Assembly (NCBI GenBank): GCA_944326605.1
Contig: CALVEM010000002.1
Coordinates: 124,001-188,000 of the forward strand
DNA from: Candidatus Gastranaerophilales bacterium
GTDB taxonomy: Bacteria > Cyanobacteriota > Vampirovibrionia > Gastranaerophilales > Gastranaerophilaceae
DNA: 64,000 nucleotides
Direction of reading: 5' to 3'
Part shown: positions 24,622 to 44,317 of the stretch, piece by piece
Numbering within the stretch: the first letter of the stretch is position 1
Layout of the letters: the number at the start of each line of letters is the position of its first letter
Made by a program: the position numbers and the translations under genes
The notes under the pieces: model-generated
What the model was told of the DNA's origin: nothing
Database searches by the model: none
What the model saw: only the letters and a program-made list of their open reading frames with translations

Positions 24622-25679
24622 ATGTTTTATAGAGAAGCTTTGAGTTGCCCCCCCCCCAACAGGATAAAGATGTAGCAAGGGATTACAGATTTTTAAAGTT
24701 AATACTGACGGATGTTAAGAAGTCCGGAGGGCTAGCTGTTATCATTAATAATTCATGCAAAACTCAGGTGTCGGATGGAACGGCTACGTTCCTCCCCTCC
24801 CTTGAGGGGAGGGGAAGTAAAGGGGTGGGTGAAAATATCCCCTCATCCGGCACAATGTGCCACCTTCTCCCACACAGGGGAGAAGGAATAAAGGAGATCC
24901 TGAAACGAGTTCAGCATGACATGTTTAACTTTCTGAAACGAACTTATTCACATATTCACTTATTTACTTATTCACATCGTAAACGCCCAGCATTTACTCT
25001 CGCAGAGGTCTTGATTACTCTCGGTATCATCGGTGTAGTGGCGGCAATGACTATGCCTGTGTTAATTCAGGGGTACACAGAGAAGGCTACGGTTGCAAAA
25101 TTAAAAAAAGTTTATTCAAATCTAAATAATGCTTTAATAATGAGTATCAATGAATACGGCGAGCTGAACGGCTGGGGGATTACATCAAGCGACATAGATA
25201 ATAAAGGGGCAGACTTAATCGCAAAACGCATCAAAGAATTTATGATTTCCGCAAAAGATTGTAATTTTGAAGGCGGATGCTTTGGAGAAGAAGCTTATAA
25301 AACTCTTGGACCCGCTAATGAAGCTTTTTTTGGACTTGCTACTAATTTTTCAACTCTTGTTTTATCAGACGGCGTTTCTATAGGCATCTGGGCAGGAGAC
25401 GGGAACAATTCTTACGGCAGCATCATAGTTGATTTAAACGGTAAGAAAAAACCAAATACAACAGGCAAAGATGCATTCTGGTTCCGCATCAAGGAACATT
25501 CAATAGTTCCTTACGGACTTCCGGAAGAGACAGGCAACAATACTTTTGAAAATTGCGTAAATCCTGTAAATTACTATTATACCTCACGTGGATGTACGGC
25601 ATGGGTTATATTTAACGAAAATATGGATTATCTTCATTGCAAAGACTTGAGCTGGGAGGGTAAGAAAGAATGCAAATAA
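24622..25679 (+). CDS. Prepilin-like protein, frame broken at a C10 tract (phase-variable candidate, OFF here)
   Basis: AAAGGAG and ATG 24622 begin an open frame that reaches C10 at 24648-24657 and stops at a TAG soon after. The prepilin frame is one base away: with C11 the ATG would read through to a 352-residue product. That product has a leader of about 110 residues made of dispersed repeats (pieces such as SGGLAVI, CKTQVSDGTATF, LPSLEGRG, EILKRVQHD), then HRKRPAFTLAEVLITLG with the hydrophobic N-helix, then a globular domain with KKKPNTTGKDAFWFRI and the end AWVIFNENMDYLHCKDLSW. Prepilin peptidase should cut before FTLAE and discard the leader. Internal TTG 24645 could in principle start the prepilin frame but has no Shine-Dalgarno. 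Confidence 0.85.
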
Positions 25680-30610: not shown

Positions 30611-31516
30611 ATGTCAAAAAAAATAAAACAGAAGCAGTTTGCAAAAGAAGCATTCAACTTATCCGAAGGCGCTGCGCACGTAGACACGCAGAACGATGAA
30701 AATTTATGCAAAACTCAAGTGTCGGGTGTAGCGGCTACGCTGCCCCCTCTCTCTAGCTCTCTCCCCAAAGGGGGGAGAGGGAAAAACGTTTCACCCTTCA
30801 CTCTTCGCACTTCACTAAAAAAGAAAACTGCCTTTACTCTGGCAGAAGTCCTTATCACACTCGGAATTATAGGTGTCGTGGCAGCGATGACTATGCCTGT
30901 GCTAGTTGCTAATCACAGAAAATCCGTTGTAGAAACAAGATTACAAAAATTTTATTCTGTAATGAATCAGGCAATTATACAATCAGAAATTGAGAACGGC
31001 GATAAAAGCACTTGGAATATAAACATGGAAGTTGATGGTGATTTTAATGATGTAGCCGATAATTTAGAATGGTATAATAAATATCTTGCAAAATATTTAA
31101 AAACTCTGAAAGTTGAAAAAAATTCTGATAACTATGTTATTGTATATTTCCCCGACGGAAGCGCTGTTATAATAAGACGTGGTGGAAGCACATACAACTT
31201 TTTCCCCGAAGCAAAACACCTTGGTAATTTAACTAAAGATGATATTTTTGATAATCAGAATAATCCGGATAATCCTCTGGCATATGGCAAAAATAATTTT
31301 TTCTTTGCATTTTATCCGAACTCAGATAATGAAAAGTGGAAATTTCATAAAGATAAAGGACTTGAGCCATATAAATGGATAAATGGATCAGTTGACAATA
31401 TAAGCTGGCGTAAGACTTCATACGGCTGCAGTGAAACAGGAAGTAAATTATATTGCACAGCACTTATTCAGGAAAACGGATGGAAAATTCCAAAAGATTA
31501 TCCAATCCGATTTTAA
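30611..31516 (+). CDS. Prepilin-like protein with repeat-built leader (intact)
   Basis: The start is ATG 30611, with GGAG 7 bases before it; an in-frame ATG at 30599 lacks a good site. A leader of about 70 residues contains EAFNLSEGAAHVDTQN, ENLCKTQVSGVAATLPP and LSSSLPKGGRGK, which are translated dispersed repeats. Then come KKKTAFTLAEVLITLG and the hydrophobic N-helix, with cleavage expected before FTLAE. The globular part ends NGWKIPKDYPIRF. The family motif VDxNGxKxPNxxGKD is not clear here. It has no poly-C tract and is fully open. It is divergent from the XRE gene at 30147. Confidence 0.85.
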   Translation: MSKKIKQKQFAKEAFNLSEGAAHVDTQNDENLCKTQVSGVAATLPPLSSSLPKGGRGKNVSPFTLRTSLKKKTAFTLAEVLITLGIIGVVAAMTMPVLVANHRKSVVETRLQKFYSVMNQAIIQSEIENGDKSTWNINMEVDGDFNDVADNLEWYNKYLAKYLKTLKVEKNSDNYVIVYFPDGSAVIIRRGGSTYNFFPEAKHLGNLTKDDIFDNQNNPDNPLAYGKNNFFFAFYPNSDNEKWKFHKDKGLEPYKWINGSVDNISWRKTSYGCSETGSKLYCTALIQENGWKIPKDYPIRF

Positions 31517-34685: not shown

Positions 34686-35978
34686 ATGATTGAAAGATAT
34701 TCACGAGATGAAATGGCAAAAATCTGGGATTTAGAATCTAAATTCCGCTATTATCTTAATGTCGAAATAGCTGTGGCAGAAGCTTACGCTGAACTCGGCA
34801 CTTTCCCGAAAGATGATATTGAAGAATTAAAAAAGAAAGCAAAATTCGACCTGAAAAGAATTGATGAAATTGAAGCCGAAGTCAAACACGATGTAATCGC
34901 GTTTTTGACCTGTGTTAATGAAAGTCTTGGCGACTTAGCAAAATATATGCATGTCGGAATGACAAGTTCTGACGTTATTGATACAGCTTTTGCTCTGCAA
35001 ATTCAGGACAGCGGGAAAATTATAATAAAAGATCTTGATGACACAATTCAATCAATGAAAAATTTGGCAAACAAACACAGGAATACTATTTGTATCGGAC
35101 GTTCACACGGTGTGCATGCCGAAGTTATGACATTCGGAGTAAAAGTTTGCAGCTGGATTGATATTCTTGAACGCCAGAGAGCAAATTTTATTCACGCACT
35201 TGATGAAATTAAAGTCGGACAAATATCAGGACCTGTCGGAACATACAGCAATATTCCGCCGGAAGTTGAAGAAATTACGTGCAAAAATTTAGGTTTAAGA
35301 CCTGCAAGAATTTCAACACAAATTATCGCAAGAGATTACCATGCATACTTTATGCAGTCTCTGGCTCTTATAGCAAGCGTAATAGAACAGTTTGCAACAG
35401 AAATCAGGCACCTGCAAAGGACAGAAGTTCTGGAAGTTGAAGAGGGCTTCGGCAAAAATCAAAAAGGTTCTTCTGCGATGCCTCATAAGAAAAATCCCGT
35501 ATTATCCGAAAACTTATGCGGGCTTGCGCGCGTTGTCAGAGCTAATTCAATTGTTGCGCTGGAAAATATCCCGCTCTGGCACGAAAGAGATATTTCACAC
35601 AGTTCCGCTGAGCGCATAATTTTTCCTGACAGCCTGACTTTAGTCGATTTTATGCTTAGCAGATTTAACGGAATTGTACAAAATCTCGTTGTCCATGAAA
35701 AAAATATGCTTAAAAATACAGATAAATTTGGCGGCATAGTTTTCTCTCAAAAAGTGCTTTTGAAACTTATAGAAAAAGGTTTGACAAGAGAAACTGCATA
35801 CCGTCTTGTTCAAAGAAACGCCATTGATGCCTTTGAAAATGACGGTGATTTCAGGGTTAACCTCCTCAATGACGAAGATATAACAAAACTTCTCACTCCT
35901 TTGGAGATTGATGAAATCTTCAGCAAAGAAGAATTTTTGAAGAATATTAATACAATATATTCAAGAATACTTAATTAA
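34686..35978 (+). CDS. purB: Adenylosuccinate lyase
   Basis: A 430-residue fumarase/aspartase superfamily enzyme. It splits adenylosuccinate (and SAICAR) to release fumarate in purine synthesis. GSSAMPHKKNP is the family signature loop with catalytic Ser; TSSDVIDTAFALQ and GRSHGVHAE carry other active-site residues. Its stop overlaps the convergent prepilin gene by 4 bases. It appears to be leaderless. Confidence 0.96.
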   Translation: MIERYSRDEMAKIWDLESKFRYYLNVEIAVAEAYAELGTFPKDDIEELKKKAKFDLKRIDEIEAEVKHDVIAFLTCVNESLGDLAKYMHVGMTSSDVIDTAFALQIQDSGKIIIKDLDDTIQSMKNLANKHRNTICIGRSHGVHAEVMTFGVKVCSWIDILERQRANFIHALDEIKVGQISGPVGTYSNIPPEVEEITCKNLGLRPARISTQIIARDYHAYFMQSLALIASVIEQFATEIRHLQRTEVLEVEEGFGKNQKGSSAMPHKKNPVLSENLCGLARVVRANSIVALENIPLWHERDISHSSAERIIFPDSLTLVDFMLSRFNGIVQNLVVHEKNMLKNTDKFGGIVFSQKVLLKLIEKGLTRETAYRLVQRNAIDAFENDGDFRVNLLNDEDITKLLTPLEIDEIFSKEEFLKNINTIYSRILN

Positions 35979-37023
35979 TCCTTGCAGCTTGTTGCTTTAT
36001 CCCAACCGAGTTTCTCAGGGCATCGCAAATAATCCATATTCTCGTTATATATAACCCATGCCGTGTAACCTTGATTACGCCCGAAAGTAACACCCGACTT
36101 ACCTTCCGGATCTCCAAAAGGAACAACTGTATTTTTTTCAAGTATAAAAGAAAAAAGATCTTTACCATCTTGATTAGGGCCTTTAAAACCGTTTATATCA
36201 ACAAATACTTTTCCCCGCGTTCCGAGACTTTCAATCGCAATTAATGTTCCGTCAGCAAGAATTAATTTATATGGACGTGTAGCGCTGTCAATTCCATACC
36301 ATGTAGTTCCGTCAAAATATTTATAGGTAACATTAGCCGGAAAACATCCTTTTTCAAAACCGCAATCTTTAGTAACTTTTAAATAAGGGATTAATTTTTC
36401 AGCAATGTTCTTTGCTCCTTCCTGTGACCATTTCTCACCTAATCCCCATTCTGTAATATTAATATTTTCAGAAGACGCAGACGTATAAGCCTGTGATAAT
36501 ATTGAGTAAGCTTTTTTTAAACGCGTAACAGTAACTTTTTCAGTGTTATTTTGCGTTAAAACAGGCATAGTCATAGCAGCAACCACACCTATAATACCGA
36601 GGGTGACTAAAACCTCTGCCAATGTAAAGGCACATTTCTTTAGACGATAGGACGTTAAGACGTTAGGACGATAAGTTCGTTTCAGGGTAGTGTGAAGAGA
36701 GAAGGGTGAAGCTTTTTTCCCACGCCCCTCAAGGGAGGGGAGGAACGTAGCCATTACATCCGACAAACAGGGACTGTATAAATTGTTCGGCTGGACTACG
36801 TGCGTAGCACCCTCCCTGATTAGGGAGGGTAAGGGTGGGTATTGATTGTTGTTACCCATCCTCTTATCCTTCCCTAACAAGGGAAGGAAGAGTTTATTGT
36901 TTTCGATACTTGCTTTGCATCTTCGCCTCTTTGCATCTTCGCATCTAATTGCGTCTTTGCCTCCGGAGAAGCCTAAAGTGCCCCCCCCCCGAAGCTCCGG
37001 AATAACTCATTTAATCTTTTCAT
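35975..37023 (-). CDS. Prepilin-like protein, frame broken at a G10 tract (phase-variable candidate, OFF here)
   Basis: ATG 37023 follows AGAGGAG. After 11 codons the strand enters G10 (C10 at 36981-36990 on the plus strand) and then meets TAG. One more G would put the ATG in the prepilin frame for a 349-residue product; I checked this frame and it is open. The leader of about 130 residues holds tandem GATGCGAAGATGCAAAG-type units, LPSLIREGATHV, LPSLEGRGK and RPNVLTSYRLKKC. Then comes AFTLAEVLVTLGIIGVV. The globular domain has DINGFKGPNQDGKDLFSFIL and ends AWVIYNENMDYLRC, like the prepilin at 24622. It has a good promoter with an inverted repeat over the -10. Confidence 0.85.
36902..36960. 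repeat. Tandem GCATCTTCGC-type short repeats
   Basis: Units such as TTGCATCTTCGCCTCTTTGCATCTTCGCATC run in tandem just downstream of the G10 tract. They are part of the prepilin leader if the frame is ON. Confidence 0.6.
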
Positions 37024-37454: not shown

Positions 37455-39164
37455 ATGAATAAACAGTATCCGGTATACACCTTAGTCAATGAATGCCATG
37501 ATTGCTACAAGTGCATCAGAGAATGTCCCGTAAAAGCTATTAAAATTGAAGACGGACACGCGTCAGTTATTCCGGAAAAATGTATTGCCTGCGGCAATTG
37601 CGTTAAGGCCTGCCCTTCAAATGCAAAAAGGGTAAGAAACGACATTGATAAAGCAAAAAATTTAATTCTTGCGCAAAAAGATGTATATGTTTCGCTCGCA
37701 CCTTCATGGCGCGCTTCTTTTGAAAATTCGGCGGAAAAAATGATTGCCTTATTGAAACGGCTCGGATTTAAAGAAGTATCAGAAACAGCGCTCGGCGCCC
37801 AGGAAGTTTCCATTAAAACAGCTCAAATGCTTAACAGTACGGAGCACGGACTTTTTATATCAAGTGCATGCCCTGTTATTGTTGATTACATAAGACTTTA
37901 CATGCCTGAATTCACCAAATACATAACACCTATAGGTTCGCCTTTAATGACACATTCAAAACTTCTTAAAGAAACATACGGAGATGATATTTCTATTGTC
38001 TTTATAGGTCCTTGTATCGGGAAGAAAAATGAAGTTACATATTCAGGACTGTTTGATGTCGCACTTACGTTTGAAGAACTCAGAATGTGGATTAACGACG
38101 AAATAATTGATATCTCAACAATTGCAAAAGATAAAAGATATCAGTTTGTTCCGGAATCCGCCTATGAAGGAACTTTATATCCGATAGACGGAGGAATGAA
38201 TGAAACAATTAAGAAATCCGGAGTAAATGATAATGTTCAACTGTTAGAGGTCTGCGGACTGCATGCACTTCAACGGGCGTTAAAAAATCTTGATGTAGAA
38301 AAGCTGGATAAAACAATATTTATAGAAGCTCTTGCGTGTGAAGGCGGATGCGTCGGCGGTCCCTGCATATCGTCAGAAAAAGCCGGAATTGTTATGGTAT
38401 CTGATATTTTAACCAAGGAAAAGAAACGCGACAAAATCCCTGCAGATCCAAAAGTTGTTGTAAATTATGATATTCAGCCCAAGAAAGTTGTTCATTCGGA
38501 TTATCCGCTTGAAGATATTCTTGCAACACTTAAAAAAATCGGCAAACACACGGTTGATGATGAATTAAACTGCGGCGGATGCGGATATGCGACCTGCCGC
38601 GATCTTGCAAAAGCCTTATTAGACGGCGATGCAGAGCCATCAATGTGTGTATCTTATATGAGAAAAATTGCAATGAGAAAAGCTGCCGCAATGATACGCT
38701 GCATGCCGGCAGCAGTTGTAATGGTTGACAATAATATGAATATTATGGAAGCCAATGACAGCTTTATGAAAATGTTTACAGGCGATATGTATGACGTATT
38801 CAAAAGCCGTCCCGAAGGGTTAAAAGGAGCAGCAATTGACAGAATTGTAGATTTTGCAGACATTTTCAGAACAATTCTGAAAACGGGCAAAGATCTTCAT
38901 AAAGAACGTTACCATGTTAAAAACCGTCTTTATGATATTTCAGCTTTCACTATTGAGGAAAATGAAATTGTCGGCGCAGTAATAACCGATGTCACAACAG
39001 CGGAAACGAACAGGGAAAAAATTTCACAAAAAGCTCATGAAGTTATTTCAAAAAATATTTCTATTGTACAGGAAATTGCCTGCCTGCTAGGCGAACACAT
39101 GGTAGAAACGGAAACTCTGCTAAGCTCTATTGCAGAAGATTATGACGAAAGGAGTGAAGAGTGA
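37455..39164 (+). CDS. Sensory-type [FeFe]-hydrogenase with PAS domain (group C-like)
   Basis: A 569-residue protein. Two [4Fe-4S] sites come first (Cys14-17-20-24 and Cys43-46-49-53). Then comes an H-cluster domain with altered loops: ISSACPVIVDY for TSCCPxW, FIGPCIGKKNE, and ALACEGGCVGGPC. Then LNCGGCGYATCRDLAKALLDG, a further Fe-S-type motif, and a PAS domain near 425-520 (AAVVMVDNNMNIMEANDSFMKMF). This order matches the putative sensory group C hydrogenases. It lies next to a SpoIIE-type phosphatase, as expected for an H2-sensing pair. The ligand and output are inferred, not shown. Confidence 0.88.
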   Translation: MNKQYPVYTLVNECHDCYKCIRECPVKAIKIEDGHASVIPEKCIACGNCVKACPSNAKRVRNDIDKAKNLILAQKDVYVSLAPSWRASFENSAEKMIALLKRLGFKEVSETALGAQEVSIKTAQMLNSTEHGLFISSACPVIVDYIRLYMPEFTKYITPIGSPLMTHSKLLKETYGDDISIVFIGPCIGKKNEVTYSGLFDVALTFEELRMWINDEIIDISTIAKDKRYQFVPESAYEGTLYPIDGGMNETIKKSGVNDNVQLLEVCGLHALQRALKNLDVEKLDKTIFIEALACEGGCVGGPCISSEKAGIVMVSDILTKEKKRDKIPADPKVVVNYDIQPKKVVHSDYPLEDILATLKKIGKHTVDDELNCGGCGYATCRDLAKALLDGDAEPSMCVSYMRKIAMRKAAAMIRCMPAAVVMVDNNMNIMEANDSFMKMFTGDMYDVFKSRPEGLKGAAIDRIVDFADIFRTILKTGKDLHKERYHVKNRLYDISAFTIEENEIVGAVITDVTTAETNREKISQKAHEVISKNISIVQEIACLLGEHMVETETLLSSIAEDYDERSEE

Positions 39165-39222
39165 AGAGTGAAATGTGAAGAGAAAATTTGTTGTTCACTC
39201 TTCACGCTTCACCCTTCACTTT
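39148..39222. repeat. AGTGAAGAGTGAAGAG inverted element between hydrogenase and phosphatase
   Basis: AGTGAAGAGTGAAGAGTGAA faces CACTCTTCACGCTTCACCC and TTCACTT across a short loop. It separates AAAGGAG (about 39149) from ATG 39229. Similar TTCACCCTTCACTCTTC sequences lie in the prepilin leaders near 30788-30815 and 36690-36712. Confidence 0.8.
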
Positions 39223-39228
39223 TATAAA

Positions 39229-40392
39229 ATGTTCATAGACATTGATTGCAGCCAGATGAAAAAATATAACCAGAATGCTTACGGGGATTACTTTATCTCA
39301 AAAAGATATCCCGATGAAGCAAAGCTGATTGCTGTCCTCTCAGACGGTCTGGGCAGCGGAATTAAGGCAAATATTTTATCGTGTATGACTGCAACAATGC
39401 TTTTAAAATTCATAGAAGGCGACCAAATTCCCATAAGCAAAGCTGCGGAAATCATTATGAACTCGCTTCCTGTATGTCAGGTAAGGAAAATAAGTTATTC
39501 AACATTTTCGGCAATAGAAGTTGATGACGACGGCAAAGCTAAAATAGTCGAAGAAGGGAACCCGAAATTTATCTGGATGAGGGATAACGAAGTTCTGGAA
39601 CCGCAATTTAAATCAATTCCTTCCAAAACCTTTAAAAATCGTTGTCTGAAAGTTTATAAAATACAATTGAAACTCGGCGACAGACTTATTTTCTGTTCAG
39701 ACGGAGTAACCCAGTCAGGACTCGGCGGCGGTCGATTAAAACTGGGTTTAAGACGTGAAGGATTGATTGTTCTCTTAGAGGATAAGCTAAAAGAACATCC
39801 CGATATTTCAAGTACGGAACTTTCACAATACATAGTCAATCAGGCAAGAAATATTGAAACGGACAGACTGCCGAAAGACGATATTTCTGCGTGTGTTTTA
39901 TATTTCAGAGAACCGCGTCAGGCTCTTGTATTCACCGGACCGCCATACCATCAGGAAAAAGATAAAGAATATGCACAAATATTTGATAAATTTAAAGGTA
40001 AAAAGGCAATAGCAGGCGGTACAACAGCAAATTTGATTTCCAGAGAATTAAACAGACCTATAACAATGGACACTACAATAAGTATCGGTAAACTTCCTGC
40101 CTGTTCTTATATGGACGGGGTTGATCTTGTAACAGAGGGAATTTTAACTTTAACCAAAACATTAGAATATCTGGAAGCAAATACACCCGATATTGACAAC
40201 GCGGCAGGTAAGCTGGTAAAATTCTTATTAGACAGTGACTGCATTACATTCATGGTGGGTGCAAAACTAAATCAAGCACATTACGATCCTGCTCTTCCCA
40301 TTGAAATCGAAATCAGGAAAAATATAATCAAAAAAATGGCAAATGTGCTTCAGGATAAATATTTCAAAAAGGTTAATATACAATATATGTAA
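39229..40392 (+). CDS. SpoIIE-type serine phosphatase
   Basis: A 387-residue PP2C-fold protein: AVLSDGLGSGIKAN (metal-binding DG), IFCSDGVTQSG and KDDISACVLYF are the conserved metal sites. The C-terminal part (from about residue 240) is a separate domain with KKAIAGGTTANLISREL. ATG 39229 begins MFIDIDCSQMKKYNQNAYG, a normal family start. A GTG at 39175 would add 18 residues encoded by the repeat (VVHSSRFTLHF). In sensory hydrogenase loci such a phosphatase is the likely output partner. Sporulation is not implied. Confidence 0.87.
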   Translation: MFIDIDCSQMKKYNQNAYGDYFISKRYPDEAKLIAVLSDGLGSGIKANILSCMTATMLLKFIEGDQIPISKAAEIIMNSLPVCQVRKISYSTFSAIEVDDDGKAKIVEEGNPKFIWMRDNEVLEPQFKSIPSKTFKNRCLKVYKIQLKLGDRLIFCSDGVTQSGLGGGRLKLGLRREGLIVLLEDKLKEHPDISSTELSQYIVNQARNIETDRLPKDDISACVLYFREPRQALVFTGPPYHQEKDKEYAQIFDKFKGKKAIAGGTTANLISRELNRPITMDTTISIGKLPACSYMDGVDLVTEGILTLTKTLEYLEANTPDIDNAAGKLVKFLLDSDCITFMVGAKLNQAHYDPALPIEIEIRKNIIKKMANVLQDKYFKKVNIQYM

Positions 40393-40470
40393 AAAGATTG
40401 AAAAAATAAATTCATAATTATAAAATTGTAATAAAAAGCATAATGAAGGTTAATCAGGAAGGATAAAAAA

Positions 40471-40728
40471 ATGAGTGAAAAAGTAAGTGTTAAAGTATGT
40501 TTAGGAACAACATGTTTTGTGATGGGTTCATCAAATTTGCAGGAATTGATAGAAACAGTTCCCAAAAAATACGGTGACAGAGTAGAAGTTTCAGGTGTTC
40601 CATGCTTAGGTTTATGCTCAATTGACTGGGAATTTTCAAAAGCTCCTTACGTAAAAGTTGACGATGACGTAATCAAAGAAGCAACAGTTGAAAAAGTACT
40701 CAAAGCAATTGATGAAAAGTTAAAATAA
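40471..40728 (+). CDS. Thioredoxin-like [2Fe-2S] ferredoxin
   Basis: An 85-residue protein. CLGTTCFVMGSSN and GVPCLGLCSID give the four cluster cysteines. It is related to the protein at 37175 but clearly diverged, so each may serve one of the two hydrogenases. AAGGA precedes ATG. A hairpin follows, then the catalytic hydrogenase. Confidence 0.87.
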   Translation: MSEKVSVKVCLGTTCFVMGSSNLQELIETVPKKYGDRVEVSGVPCLGLCSIDWEFSKAPYVKVDDDVIKEATVEKVLKAIDEKLK

Positions 40729-40762
40729 GTTTTATACAATTGAAGAAGAAGAAAAATAAAAC

Positions 40763-40801
40763 AATAATAGCAGGTTGAATATATGTCAATCTGCTATTAT
40801 T
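40763..40801 (+). terminator. Hairpin between ferredoxin and hydrogenase
   Basis: AATAATAGCAG and CTGCTATTATT form an 11-bp stem with an inner TTGA/TCAA pair; T residues after it are few. It may be a leaky terminator that sets expression of the next gene. Confidence 0.6.
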
Positions 40802-40865
40802 TTGAAAAATTTTATGTTCATGCCATAATATATTTATATGGAATAGTAAAGAGGTAAAAAGATAT

Positions 40866-42344
40866 ATGGCAATGAACACCAGCACTCCAAAAGAAACATC
40901 ACATTTAAAAAGAGAGATATTAGTACGTCTTATAAAAGCATATTTGAGTGATAATTTTGAAGAGAACACAAGACTCATACCTTATGCAATGCGTCCGAAA
41001 AACAGCGATGTCCCTAATTACAGATGCTGTATTTTTAAAGAACGTGCAATTTTAAGAGACAGAGCAATTGCAGGGCTGGGATTTTCCATTGAAGACACTG
41101 ACGATAGTGTTTTATTGTCAGAACTGGCAAATAAAGCCGAAAAAAGAGAGGTTCCGGACGAACACCCGCTGACGGTTCTTACTACTGCGTGCAAGGGGTG
41201 CGTTCCTTCAAGAATTTACGTAACGGATTTGTGTCAGGGTTGTGTTGCAAGACCGTGTGTAAACACTTGTAAATTCGGAGCCATTTCAATTCAAAACGGC
41301 AAATCAGTTATTGATCCCGAAAAATGTAAAAACTGCGGAATGTGTGTACAGGTTTGTCCGTATCAGGCAATCCAGAAAATTATTGTTCCGTGCGAAAACG
41401 CATGTCCGGTTGGCGCAATTGCAAAAGACGAAAACGGTCATGCAAAAATAGATTTTGACAAATGTATTTCCTGCGGCAAATGTGCCTCAGCCTGTCCTTT
41501 TGGTGCCGTGCATGAAAAAAGCCAGATTATTGATGTTTTAAAGCATGTGAAAGCCGGCAAAAAAGTGATAGCAATGGTTGCGCCTGCAATGTTCGGACAG
41601 CTTCCGTGCAAGCCGCAGCAGCTTAAAGAGGCCATTATGGAACTCGGGTTTGCAGATGTTTACGAAGTTGCTCAGGGTGCTGATGTTACAACAAAAACAG
41701 AAGCTGCTGAATTTGAAGAAAGATTGATGAAGGGTGCAGAATTTATGACAACTTCCTGCTGTGCAGGCTACAATGAACTTGTTGATAAACATATTCCGGA
41801 TATGAAACCTTTCCGTTCCGACACAAAAACACCGATGTATTACACTGCGGAAATCGTAAAACGTGAAAATCCTGATGCAGTAACCGTATTTTTCAGCCCT
41901 TGTGTTGCTAAAAAACGTGAAGCATTGCAAAACCCGAATGTCGATTATGTTTTAAACTATGAAGAAATCGGTGCATGGATGATTGCGCTGGGCATTCAGG
42001 TTGCAGAATGTGAAGAAAGCGAATTTAAAACACAGGCGTCGGCAGAAGGCAGAAATTACTGTGTAACAGGCGGTGTTGCAAAAGCTGTTCAAACATTACT
42101 GCCGGAAGAAATTCCCGCACATCCTGTAATCATTGACGGTCTGACAAAGCAATCTGTCAGAGACTTGAAAAAATACGCTAAAAACGGAATGTGTGAACTC
42201 GGAAACCTTATTGAAGTTATGGCATGTACAGGCGGCTGCTTAGGCGGGAATTCAACCGTTAACGCCTTCAAACCGGCTTTAAAACAGGTTACAAATTACG
42301 TTAACGAGAGCAAGTCAATTAAAGAACAGGTAAAAGAAGGATAA
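40866..42344 (+). CDS. [FeFe]-hydrogenase, catalytic (group B-like)
   Basis: A 492-residue protein. After a unique N-terminal part come Cys-rich ferredoxin motifs (CKGCVPSRIY, CQGCVARPCVNTC, CKNCGMCVQVCP, CISCGKCASACP). Then come the H-cluster loops TSCCAGY, FFSPCVAKKREA and MACTGGCLGGN. The TSCC-A and SPC variants, rather than TSCCPxW and MPC, place it with group B monomeric enzymes. It probably disposes of fermentation electrons as H2 with ferredoxin as donor. AAGAGGT precedes ATG. Its stop is only 13 nt before the phase-variable prepilin, so the two are co-transcribed. Confidence 0.92.
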   Translation: MAMNTSTPKETSHLKREILVRLIKAYLSDNFEENTRLIPYAMRPKNSDVPNYRCCIFKERAILRDRAIAGLGFSIEDTDDSVLLSELANKAEKREVPDEHPLTVLTTACKGCVPSRIYVTDLCQGCVARPCVNTCKFGAISIQNGKSVIDPEKCKNCGMCVQVCPYQAIQKIIVPCENACPVGAIAKDENGHAKIDFDKCISCGKCASACPFGAVHEKSQIIDVLKHVKAGKKVIAMVAPAMFGQLPCKPQQLKEAIMELGFADVYEVAQGADVTTKTEAAEFEERLMKGAEFMTTSCCAGYNELVDKHIPDMKPFRSDTKTPMYYTAEIVKRENPDAVTVFFSPCVAKKREALQNPNVDYVLNYEEIGAWMIALGIQVAECEESEFKTQASAEGRNYCVTGGVAKAVQTLLPEEIPAHPVIIDGLTKQSVRDLKKYAKNGMCELGNLIEVMACTGGCLGGNSTVNAFKPALKQVTNYVNESKSIKEQVKEG

Positions 42345-42357
42345 AGGAGGTCTGAAA

Positions 42358-43118
42358 ATGTTAATAAATAAAGTCTCAGAAGTGCCCCCCCCCCGCAAAA
42401 CTCGCGTACGAGAAGGGCTTTCACGTTAGCCGAAGTTTTAATTACACTCGGGATTATTGGAGTCGTTGCGGCTATTACAATTCCTTCTGTTATAAATGAT
42501 GCGCAGGACAAACAGTATAAAGCTATGTTTAAAAAACAATATTCTGTCATTGCGCAAGCAATTCAACTGGTATACGCAAAAGAGAATACTTATATTACTC
42601 CGCAAACTGACGGCTGGGAAAAAATGCCTTACTATGTATGTGCAATAGGAAAAGAATTGAAATCAATCGGATCAGGCATAAAATGTGAAGTAATATCAAA
42701 CAGTCAGGATTACACTATTAATTCTATTCCTAAAAATAAAAATGTACACTGGCATAAAAATGAGGAATGGTTTGATAAAACAGGGAAACCATTGGCAATG
42801 AATGGTGGTGGAGCAGATGGATACGGACTTTTAACGTTTTTATTGCCTGACGGTGCATTAATAAATTTTAACTGTGGATATGAAGTCTTTATAGATGTAA
42901 ACGGATATAAAAAACCTAATACTGTCGGTAGAGATATATTTTATTTCTTTATAAAAGACAATCAATTTACACCTGTTTTCTGGACATCTGAACGAGGGAA
43001 TAATGTAAACGGATGCAGTGGCGCGGCTAACTGGACAACACTTACACCATATAACTATAAAGAGGATTGCGAAACAGGTTCGGGGTGGGGCTGCTCACCA
43101 GTATACATTATGGAATAA
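42358..43118 (+). CDS. Prepilin-like protein, frame broken at a C10 tract (phase-variable candidate, OFF here)
   Basis: A perfect AAAGGAGG (42343-42350) precedes ATG 42358. Nine codons later the frame meets C10 (42385-42394) and ends at TAG. The prepilin frame (RTRRAFTLAEVLITLG) is reached with C11, giving 253 residues with a short leader of about 20. The globular domain has DVNGYKKPNTVGRDIFYFFI, and the C-terminal end (YNYKEDCETGSGWGCSPVY) differs from the other prepilins. It lies at the end of the hydrogenase operon, so ON/OFF switching would not affect upstream genes. No other start serves the prepilin frame. Confidence 0.87.
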
Positions 43119-43162
43119 CTATTCTGGCACAAAACTTCTTTTTGTCATATAATAAAGAAGCT

Positions 43163-44317
43163 ATGGAAATTAAGAAGAGAAAAATAAGTATTATAGGCTC
43201 TACAGGCTCTATCGGGCGTCAGGCGCTGGAGGTTATTGAAAAATTAGGTGATAAATTTAAAATTATCGCCCTTGCTGGCGGTAATAACGTAGAACTTTTA
43301 AAAAAACAGGCTGAAAAATATCAGCCGGAATTTGTGTCTTGTAACAGTCATCCTGAACTTGTTTCAGGATCTCACAATGCAAAAATTCTAACTGGAATGG
43401 CAGGCTTAGAACAAATTTGTTCAAACAAAGAAAACGATATTATACTCGTTGCCTGCTCGGGCAAAGTCGGTCTCCGTCCGACATTAACCGCTATCAAAAA
43501 CGGCATTGATATTGCGCTTGCCAATAAAGAAACTCTCGTAATGGCAGGCGATATTGTAATGAGTGAGGCAAAAAAATACGGGGTAAATATTATCCCTGTT
43601 GACAGCGAACACTGCGCAATCCACCAGTGTATAAAAGATATCAATCAGGTTGATAAATTAATTATTACCGCATCAGGAGGTCCGTTTCTTCACAAATCCG
43701 TTGAAGATATGAAAAATGCCACGGTTGAACAGGCACTTGCACATCCCAGATGGAATATGGGCAAAAAAATTACCGTTGACAGCGCAACTTTGATGAATAA
43801 AGGGTTGGAAATTATTGAAGCACATCATTTATTCGGCTTTGATTATGATGACATTGATGTTGTTGTTCATCCTCAAAGTGTAGTGCATTCGGCAATAGAA
43901 TATGTTGACGGAAGCGTTATTGCACAATTAGGGCTTCCGAGCATGCATATTCCGATACAGTATGCAATAACTTATCCTGAAAGATTTGAAGGAATTAAAT
44001 CAAAAAGCTTCAGCTTTGCAGAAACTGCAAGGCTGGATTTTGAAAAACCAGATTACGAAAAATTCCCCACTGTAAAACTTGCTTATGAAATGGGAAGAAC
44101 AGGCGGAACTGCAACTGTATGTATGAATGCAGCAAATGAAGAAGCAGTATTTGCCTTTCTTGACGGAAAGATAAAACTTTATAATATCTATGAAATAACA
44201 AAAAAAATGTGTGATGAGCATAAAGTTATTCAAAATCCGACAATAGATGAAATTTTTGCAGTAGACGAACAAATTCGCGAGAAAACAAAAGAATATATTG
44301 CGAAATTTTCATATTAA
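43163..44317 (+). CDS. dxr: 1-deoxy-D-xylulose 5-phosphate reductoisomerase with an in-frame repeat
   Basis: A 384-residue enzyme that makes MEP, the second step of the non-mevalonate isoprenoid path. It shows GSTGSIGRQALEV (NADPH), PVDSEHCAIHQC, SGGPF, HPRWNMGKKITVDSATLMNKGLE and VHPQSVVHS. ATG 43163 is chosen from the family N-terminus. Residues about 62-73 (HPELVSGSHN) are the translation of a CTGAA/TTCAG hairpin repeat (43345-43380) sitting in a loop between FVSCN and AKILTGMAG. The active-site residues are intact. Confidence 0.96.
   Translation: MEIKKRKISIIGSTGSIGRQALEVIEKLGDKFKIIALAGGNNVELLKKQAEKYQPEFVSCNSHPELVSGSHNAKILTGMAGLEQICSNKENDIILVACSGKVGLRPTLTAIKNGIDIALANKETLVMAGDIVMSEAKKYGVNIIPVDSEHCAIHQCIKDINQVDKLIITASGGPFLHKSVEDMKNATVEQALAHPRWNMGKKITVDSATLMNKGLEIIEAHHLFGFDYDDIDVVVHPQSVVHSAIEYVDGSVIAQLGLPSMHIPIQYAITYPERFEGIKSKSFSFAETARLDFEKPDYEKFPTVKLAYEMGRTGGTATVCMNAANEEAVFAFLDGKIKLYNIYEITKKMCDEHKVIQNPTIDEIFAVDEQIREKTKEYIAKFSY
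43345..43380. repeat. CTGAA/TTCAG hairpin repeat inside dxr
   Basis: CATCCTGAACTTGTTTCAGGATC is identical in type to the intergenic copies and is read in frame as HPELVSGS. Confidence 0.9.

Follow-up and report, generated by a model that had tools for sequence, protein, structure and literature searches.

A prepilin gene directly behind a [FeFe] hydrogenase-type gene is probably a phase-variable type IV prepilin, that is, a slipped-strand contingency locus whose C/G tract has a set-point of ten bases, the length at which the pilins rest OFF. The gene (42358-43118) lies in the window, the whole 64-kb stretch of DNA analysed here, which corresponds to C2:124001-188000 of a 2.05 Mb, 26-contig Gastranaerophilales genome (G000). 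A tract of ten C separates its start codon from the prepilin motif and leaves the two in different frames, and the switchable reading of this pilin is strongly indicated by the sequence.

The prepilin locus behind the hydrogenase gene

The features of the locus are listed in Table 1. The hydrogenase stop codon TAA occupies 42342-42344, and the pilin ATG at 42358 follows 13 nt downstream of it. The original prediction had set AAAGGAGG itself 13 nt past the stop; the element is present, but it overlaps the stop codon and the distance belongs to the ATG. Its description of an ATG, a C10 tract and a one-base offset to RRAFTLAEV agrees with the sequence: the motif is out of frame with ATG 42358, and joining them takes one additional base or the loss of two. 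Between the last upstream stop (42369-42371) and the motif the prepilin frame holds no ATG, GTG or TTG. ATG 42358 is therefore the only start found, and an internal start in the prepilin frame was rejected for this pilin, there being no candidate before the motif. The list of open reading frames starts the pilin at an internal ATG, 42525. No known RNA element was found near the pilin.

Table 1. Coordinates of the features (positions in the window, or contig and position in the genome where a contig is named)
Feature	Position	Strand	Remarks
First C10 prepilin of the window	24622-25679	+	Tract 24648-24657, needs +1
Second tract prepilin of the window	35975-37023	-	Tract 36981-36990, G10 in mRNA sense, needs +1
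Second Fe_hyd_lg_C protein	37455-39164		Weak PAS match; hydrogenase neighbourhood (37455-42344)
SpoIIE-type phosphatase	39175-40392		Hydrogenase neighbourhood
85-aa ORF	40471-40728		Hydrogenase neighbourhood
[FeFe] hydrogenase-type gene (Fe_hyd_lg_C)	40866-42344	+	Pfam; upstream of the pilin
Ribosome-binding site AAAGGAGG	42343-42350	+	From the sequence; overlaps the hydrogenase stop codon
Leader frame from ATG	42358-42429	+	OFF product at tract length 10; 23 codons, then TAG
Prepilin (ON) frame	42372-43118	+	Without own start codon before the motif
C10 tract	42385-42394	+	Length 11 (or 8) joins the prepilin frame to the ATG
RRAFTLAEV cleavage/methylation motif	42411-42437	+	Pfam PF07963, NCBIfam TIGR02532
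Mature pilin coding region	42420-43118	+	232 aa
Promoter-like site before dxr	43124-43153	+	Consensus match only
dxr, 1-deoxy-D-xylulose 5-phosphate reductoisomerase	43163-44317	+	Next gene
Non-pilin tract genes of this genome (L149, L151, L153-L155)	C2:27094, C2:120805, C3:13884, C4:50277, C5:26905		In frame at 10

The N-terminus has the features of a class III signal, RRA/FTLAEVLITLGIIGVVAA, with G or A before the cut, F at +1, E at +5 and a hydrophobic stretch (Pfam, NCBIfam), and the N_methyl/TIGR02532 domains mark a surface-structure gene. Residue -1 is Ala here and Gly in the counterparts of two relatives, G047 and G008. One structure prediction of low confidence (mean pLDDT 51) gives a helix at 3-55. 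T2SSE ATPase matches are found in the genome as well, four above the cut-off and one below, which may serve other systems. The pilin body shares 75% identity with a pilin that lacks a tract and lies at another place in G015, against 58-61% with the syntenic relatives, and this suggests that bodies change under a conserved switch. Two related pilins, G000:C7:98912 (L116) and G008:C47 (L222), differ in the tract: one lacks it and starts directly in frame, whereas a leader with G10 precedes the other, which points to gain or loss of the switch module.

A hydrogenase match is present in 33 out of 33 genomes of the genus. Among the 29 loci readable past the stop (30 fetched), a prepilin follows the hydrogenase stop at no more than 75 nt in only three, those of this genome, G047 and G008, and all three prepilins carry a C10 tract, have an ATG 27 nt before it and need +1. 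In the relatives without the pilin that were inspected, a GC-rich hairpin with a T-run stands within about 20 nt of the hydrogenase stop, usually followed by a TATAAT-like site and then dxr. The pilin of this genome occupies the terminator's place. A terminator between the two genes, which would have spoken against the joint transcription originally proposed, was looked for on the + strand and none was predicted. Hydrogenase transcripts should therefore run into the pilin. Co-transcription of the two genes is plausible from this anatomy (no + strand terminator, a gap of 13 nt, the terminator of the relatives missing), short of proof. That H2 metabolism and the fibre are linked in general is not supported, as the arrangement occurs in 3 of 29 genus genomes only and the other tract pilins lie elsewhere.

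It is also possible, if rather unlikely, that the pilin is transcribed from a separate promoter within the hydrogenase gene and stands behind that gene only incidentally. A promoter-like site matching at 10 of 12 positions does lie there (41745-41774), and the place is common to very few genomes of the genus. Furthermore, some tract genes of other clades are found downstream of the hydrogenase: at 6 of 80 GTDB loci another tract stands about 120 nt after the stop, in the two cases inspected (L304, L317) behind a terminator-like hairpin. However, this AT-rich stretch contains many promoter-like matches (44, against 24.9 expected), the hydrogenase terminator is missing here and the Shine-Dalgarno (SD) sequence of the pilin overlaps the hydrogenase stop.

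A common tract length and register

C or G runs longer than six bases occur in the 64-kb window as three C10 tracts only, all in prepilin leaders and all needing +1. For runs of at least ten bases in 64 kb, a zero-order model predicts 0.0028 of C and 0.0016 of G. The designation as third C10 prepilin is correct within the window but not for the genome, which has 71 tract prepilins: a C/G run of at least seven was found within 700 nt upstream of 71 of the 109 N_methyl matches. Tracts of ten number 74 in this genome and up to 169 per genome in the genus. The leaders of the other two window prepilins (24658-24977 and 36980-36641) are 320-340 nt long and open in the ON frame only; repeat-like stretches occur in both, for instance CCTCCCCTCCCTTGAGGGG. 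A prepilin without a tract (motif from 30818) is preceded at about 45 nt by a G6 run (30770-30775), which may be a tract that has contracted. Six contig ends of this genome (C5, C7 at both ends, C8, C18 and C20) have a tract no more than about 130 nt away; the assembly thus breaks there, perhaps at shared leader repeats.

To define the register, we paired an ATG that has an SD-like motif and lies ahead of the run with the prepilin frame behind the run, and counted the bases needed to join them. This was done for three species, this genome as well as G042 and G007 with 20 sampled stretches each. Tracts lacking such an ATG or a pilin-like downstream frame were set apart (18 of 89 in this genome, 8 of 39 in G042 and 1 of 49 in G007). 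Each species is represented by one consensus genome, and leader homology inflates every count given here, including that of the length-10 prepilins, among which 129 of 132 need +1 and would be ON at 11 (58/60 in this genome, 26/26 in G042 and 45/46 in G007). Prepilins of length 9 need +2 throughout (7/7 and 1/1, that is, 8/8 across the three species), and six out of eight with length 11 are in frame, the remaining two needing +2. ON and OFF lengths are both present in this set, in-frame alleles making up 9 of 150 tract pilins. These two count among the exceptions, as does a 16-base tract that is in frame. The homopolymer lies inside the reading frame and sets the frame by its length, as at a contingency locus. 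The register rule is looser in the 80 GTDB hydrogenase loci, which reach past the genus and share some assemblies with the genus set; they gave +1 in 14 of 16 tracts of length 10 and in four of five of length 9. In contrast to the nearly constant +1 within the genus, the length-11 tracts of these other clades need +2 (3/3).

The leaders themselves vary widely, their part beyond the tract measuring between about 10 and about 680 nt, whereas tract and +1 are common to the 58 of 60 length-10 pilins of this genome. This bears out the original view that the tract, and not the repeats, is the common device. Where at least 150 nt separate tract and motif, the ON frame is open in 48 of 50 leaders and either other frame in none (0/50), and a stop within 30 nt after the tract was found in 59 of 61 cases for the length-10 frame and in 30 of 61 for the third frame; these counts are not independent, because many leaders share two cassette types. 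Judged from the open frames, the leaders appear to be translated. In 20 of the 71 tract pilins the ON frame has a start codon, preceded by a weak SD, downstream of the tract, so in those a bypass of the tract is possible.

Non-pilin genes behave differently. Those with a ten-base tract are in frame at ten in 8/8 cases, five in this genome (radical SAM, family 2 glycosyltransferase, AAA/M41 peptidase-like, methyltransferase and TrbI-like; Table 1) and three in G042. A further glycosyltransferase-like gene of this genome is also in frame and was kept outside this count for its short upstream frame; two length-10 cases of G042 were skipped for the same reason, one in frame and one not. Fisher's test for 2/132 pilins against 8/8 non-pilins in frame gives p = 1.5e-11, which is a guide only since the genes share ancestry. 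The +1 offset of the pilins is therefore not a uniform sequencing error, and ten is a set-point relative to which pilins and other genes have different registers.

Counting exact runs on either strand and in any gene, the 33 genomes of the genus hold 148 of length 9, 1621 of length 10 and 150 of length 11. Length 10 thus makes up 84.5% of the tracts of 9-11, and runs of exactly ten are absent from 4 of the 33 genomes. One genome, G002, deviates, with lengths of 8-14, mixed registers and mixed strand (L205-L221); many of its tracts lie in non-pilin genes, some glycan-related by eye. Loss of mismatch repair was rejected as the cause, because two MutS-type matches are present in G002, as in six of the seven other genomes searched (one in G013). 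The one strain pair considered, L242/L268, was discarded for the comparison of tract lengths, as identical contig coordinates reveal one assembly. A fixed tract length had been named at the outset as an argument against switching, and the consensus genomes come close to it. We read the near-fixed length as a set-point, yet it also keeps programmed slippage alive.

Replication strand and competing explanations

The strand that carries the C or the G run agrees between neighbouring tracts in 70 of 72 pairs in this genome, 33 of 33 in G042 and 44 of 46 in G007, the disagreements being single switches. The coding strand, by contrast, is often not shared by neighbouring tract pilins (same/different: 29/26, 17/8 and 25/20, respectively). 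When all exact runs of ten in G007 (73) and G043 (44) are considered, each genome shows two within-contig switch points (on C1 and C2). Few switch points per genome is the pattern that origin and terminus would give. In G007 the G run lies on the G-rich strand, the sign of the GC skew matching in 16 of 17 stretches longer than 6 kb, with the other near zero; in G042 all nine tract-bearing stretches with a skew beyond two standard deviations match (9/9), the weaker ones being mixed. Whether a gene has G10 or C10 in the mRNA sense thus depends on its direction relative to replication. A constant G strand together with mixed coding strands points to DNA replication, not RNA, as the process shaping the tract.

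The mechanism we infer for living cells is that slippage of the DNA polymerase would alter the C/G tract by one base and thereby switch the gene. At length 10 a ribosome starting at ATG 42358, probably on a transcript shared with the hydrogenase, whose terminator is missing, would terminate after 23 codons. At length 11 it would continue into MLINKVSEVPPPPQNSRTRRA/FTLAEV..., and this product could be cut by prepilin peptidase and assembled by the pilus machine. The pilin would be one of about 70 in the genome with a common resting length and +1 register, and cells in a population would therefore carry different pilin mixtures. Slippage is favoured by the tract and register having been kept at the hydrogenase locus in G047 and G008. 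Against it, tract lengths scatter much less than in the stationary distribution that we computed with C. jejuni rates (mode 9, 43%), and the direction is almost constantly +1 in the genus, which two-sided slippage does not require.

A more far-reaching reading, which we offer tentatively, is that a process dependent on the replication strand, whether intrinsic or relying on a factor, keeps the tract at ten. Registers would have evolved around this length such that pilins rest OFF (ON at +1) and other tract genes ON, giving a combinatorial display, able to reset itself, of at least about 70 alternative pilins. To our knowledge, a display of about 70 pilins would be the largest single-family phasome known.

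The uniformity of length 10 and +1 within the genus would be accounted for equally well by programmed recoding, and the stop directly after the run fits this too. Here the DNA would stay at ten, and slippage of the RNA polymerase (+1) or a -1 ribosomal shift would yield a small, steady share of full-length product. We consider this unlikely. Nothing at the RNA level would call for the replication-strand rule, the same run is in frame in non-pilin genes, the length-11 tracts of other clades need +2 (3/3) and the registers of G002 are mixed. Furthermore, no stable RNA structure follows the tract at the one locus analysed (42385-42440, z -0.01).

An error of sequencing or assembly, by which real tracts of 11 were written as 10, is very improbable. 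It is true that G tracts are difficult to sequence and that their lengths in databases may be incorrect, as the passages cited on B. breve point out (PMC9187656). However, a collapse from 11 to 10 was rejected because of the non-pilin genes with the same run in frame (8/8), the same assembly contains runs of 11, 12 and 16, and genomes from several projects and assemblers, judged by their titles, agree. Just as improbable is a decaying pseudogene family at a mutational hot spot, for although the consensus shows the majority of copies out of frame, it was rejected on the leaders open in the ON frame alone (48/50 against 0/50), besides which the register is uniform and the tract at one locus was kept between species while the body diverged to 58-61%.

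Slipped-strand phase variation is thus the reading we retain. If it is true, a common, little-studied gut lineage related to cyanobacteria shows its pili in chance combinations. The rules found here (exactly ten, ON at 11, the G run on one replication strand, non-pilins in frame) make both the equilibrium length of a homopolymer and the effect of replication direction on slippage testable from existing metagenome reads. In addition, gene prediction programs will shorten or overlook dozens of pilin genes in genomes of this kind.

Relation to known systems

A literature search covering few subscription papers yielded no report of pilins subject to phase variation in Melainabacteria, Gastranaerophilales or Vampirovibrionia, nor any account of tracts of this kind obeying a replication-strand rule. 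New here are the scale, the uniformity of the register and the strand rule. Programmed transcriptional slippage likewise joins out-of-frame ORFs at a homopolymer, but the survey, in the part cited, concerns A and T runs, and a replication-strand rule would not be expected for it (PMC1088944). Repeat-mediated phase variation in Neisseria resembles the present case in its large set of repeat-bearing genes; an array of a single family, length and register is not described in the part of that source covered here (PMC5084427).

The phasome of Campylobacter jejuni is similar in several respects, according to the passages cited: its C/G homopolymers of 7-13 lie in surface genes and show an indel bias towards 9-10 (PMC8224891, PMC4965091). 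Insertion is favoured there at 8-9 and deletion at 10-11, and these rates give a length attractor comparable to that of the genus tracts but broader (PMC8224891). In the same passages the number of loci is 12-29, compared with 74 tracts of ten here and up to 169 in the genus, so that the scale, if our reading is true, lies above these figures (PMC8224891, PMC4965091). The tracts described here also differ in belonging mostly to one gene family, where looked at, and in the predominance of length 10 (84.5% of 9-11).

The pilus G-tract of Bifidobacterium breve UCC2003 appears to be the closest precedent met. In this gut commensal, as far as the cited part describes it, slippage in a G-tract of sortase-pilus genes yields a mixed G11/G12 population at two loci (PMC9187656). 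As with the pilins of this study, the host lives in the gut, the consensus is out of frame and a change of one base joins two frames; the G run lies inside the first pilus gene, and fusion of the frames allows pili to be formed (PMC9187656). The differences are that B. breve has sortase pili at two loci in the passages cited, whereas here type IV prepilins at about 70 loci share one length and register and follow a strand rule (PMC9187656).
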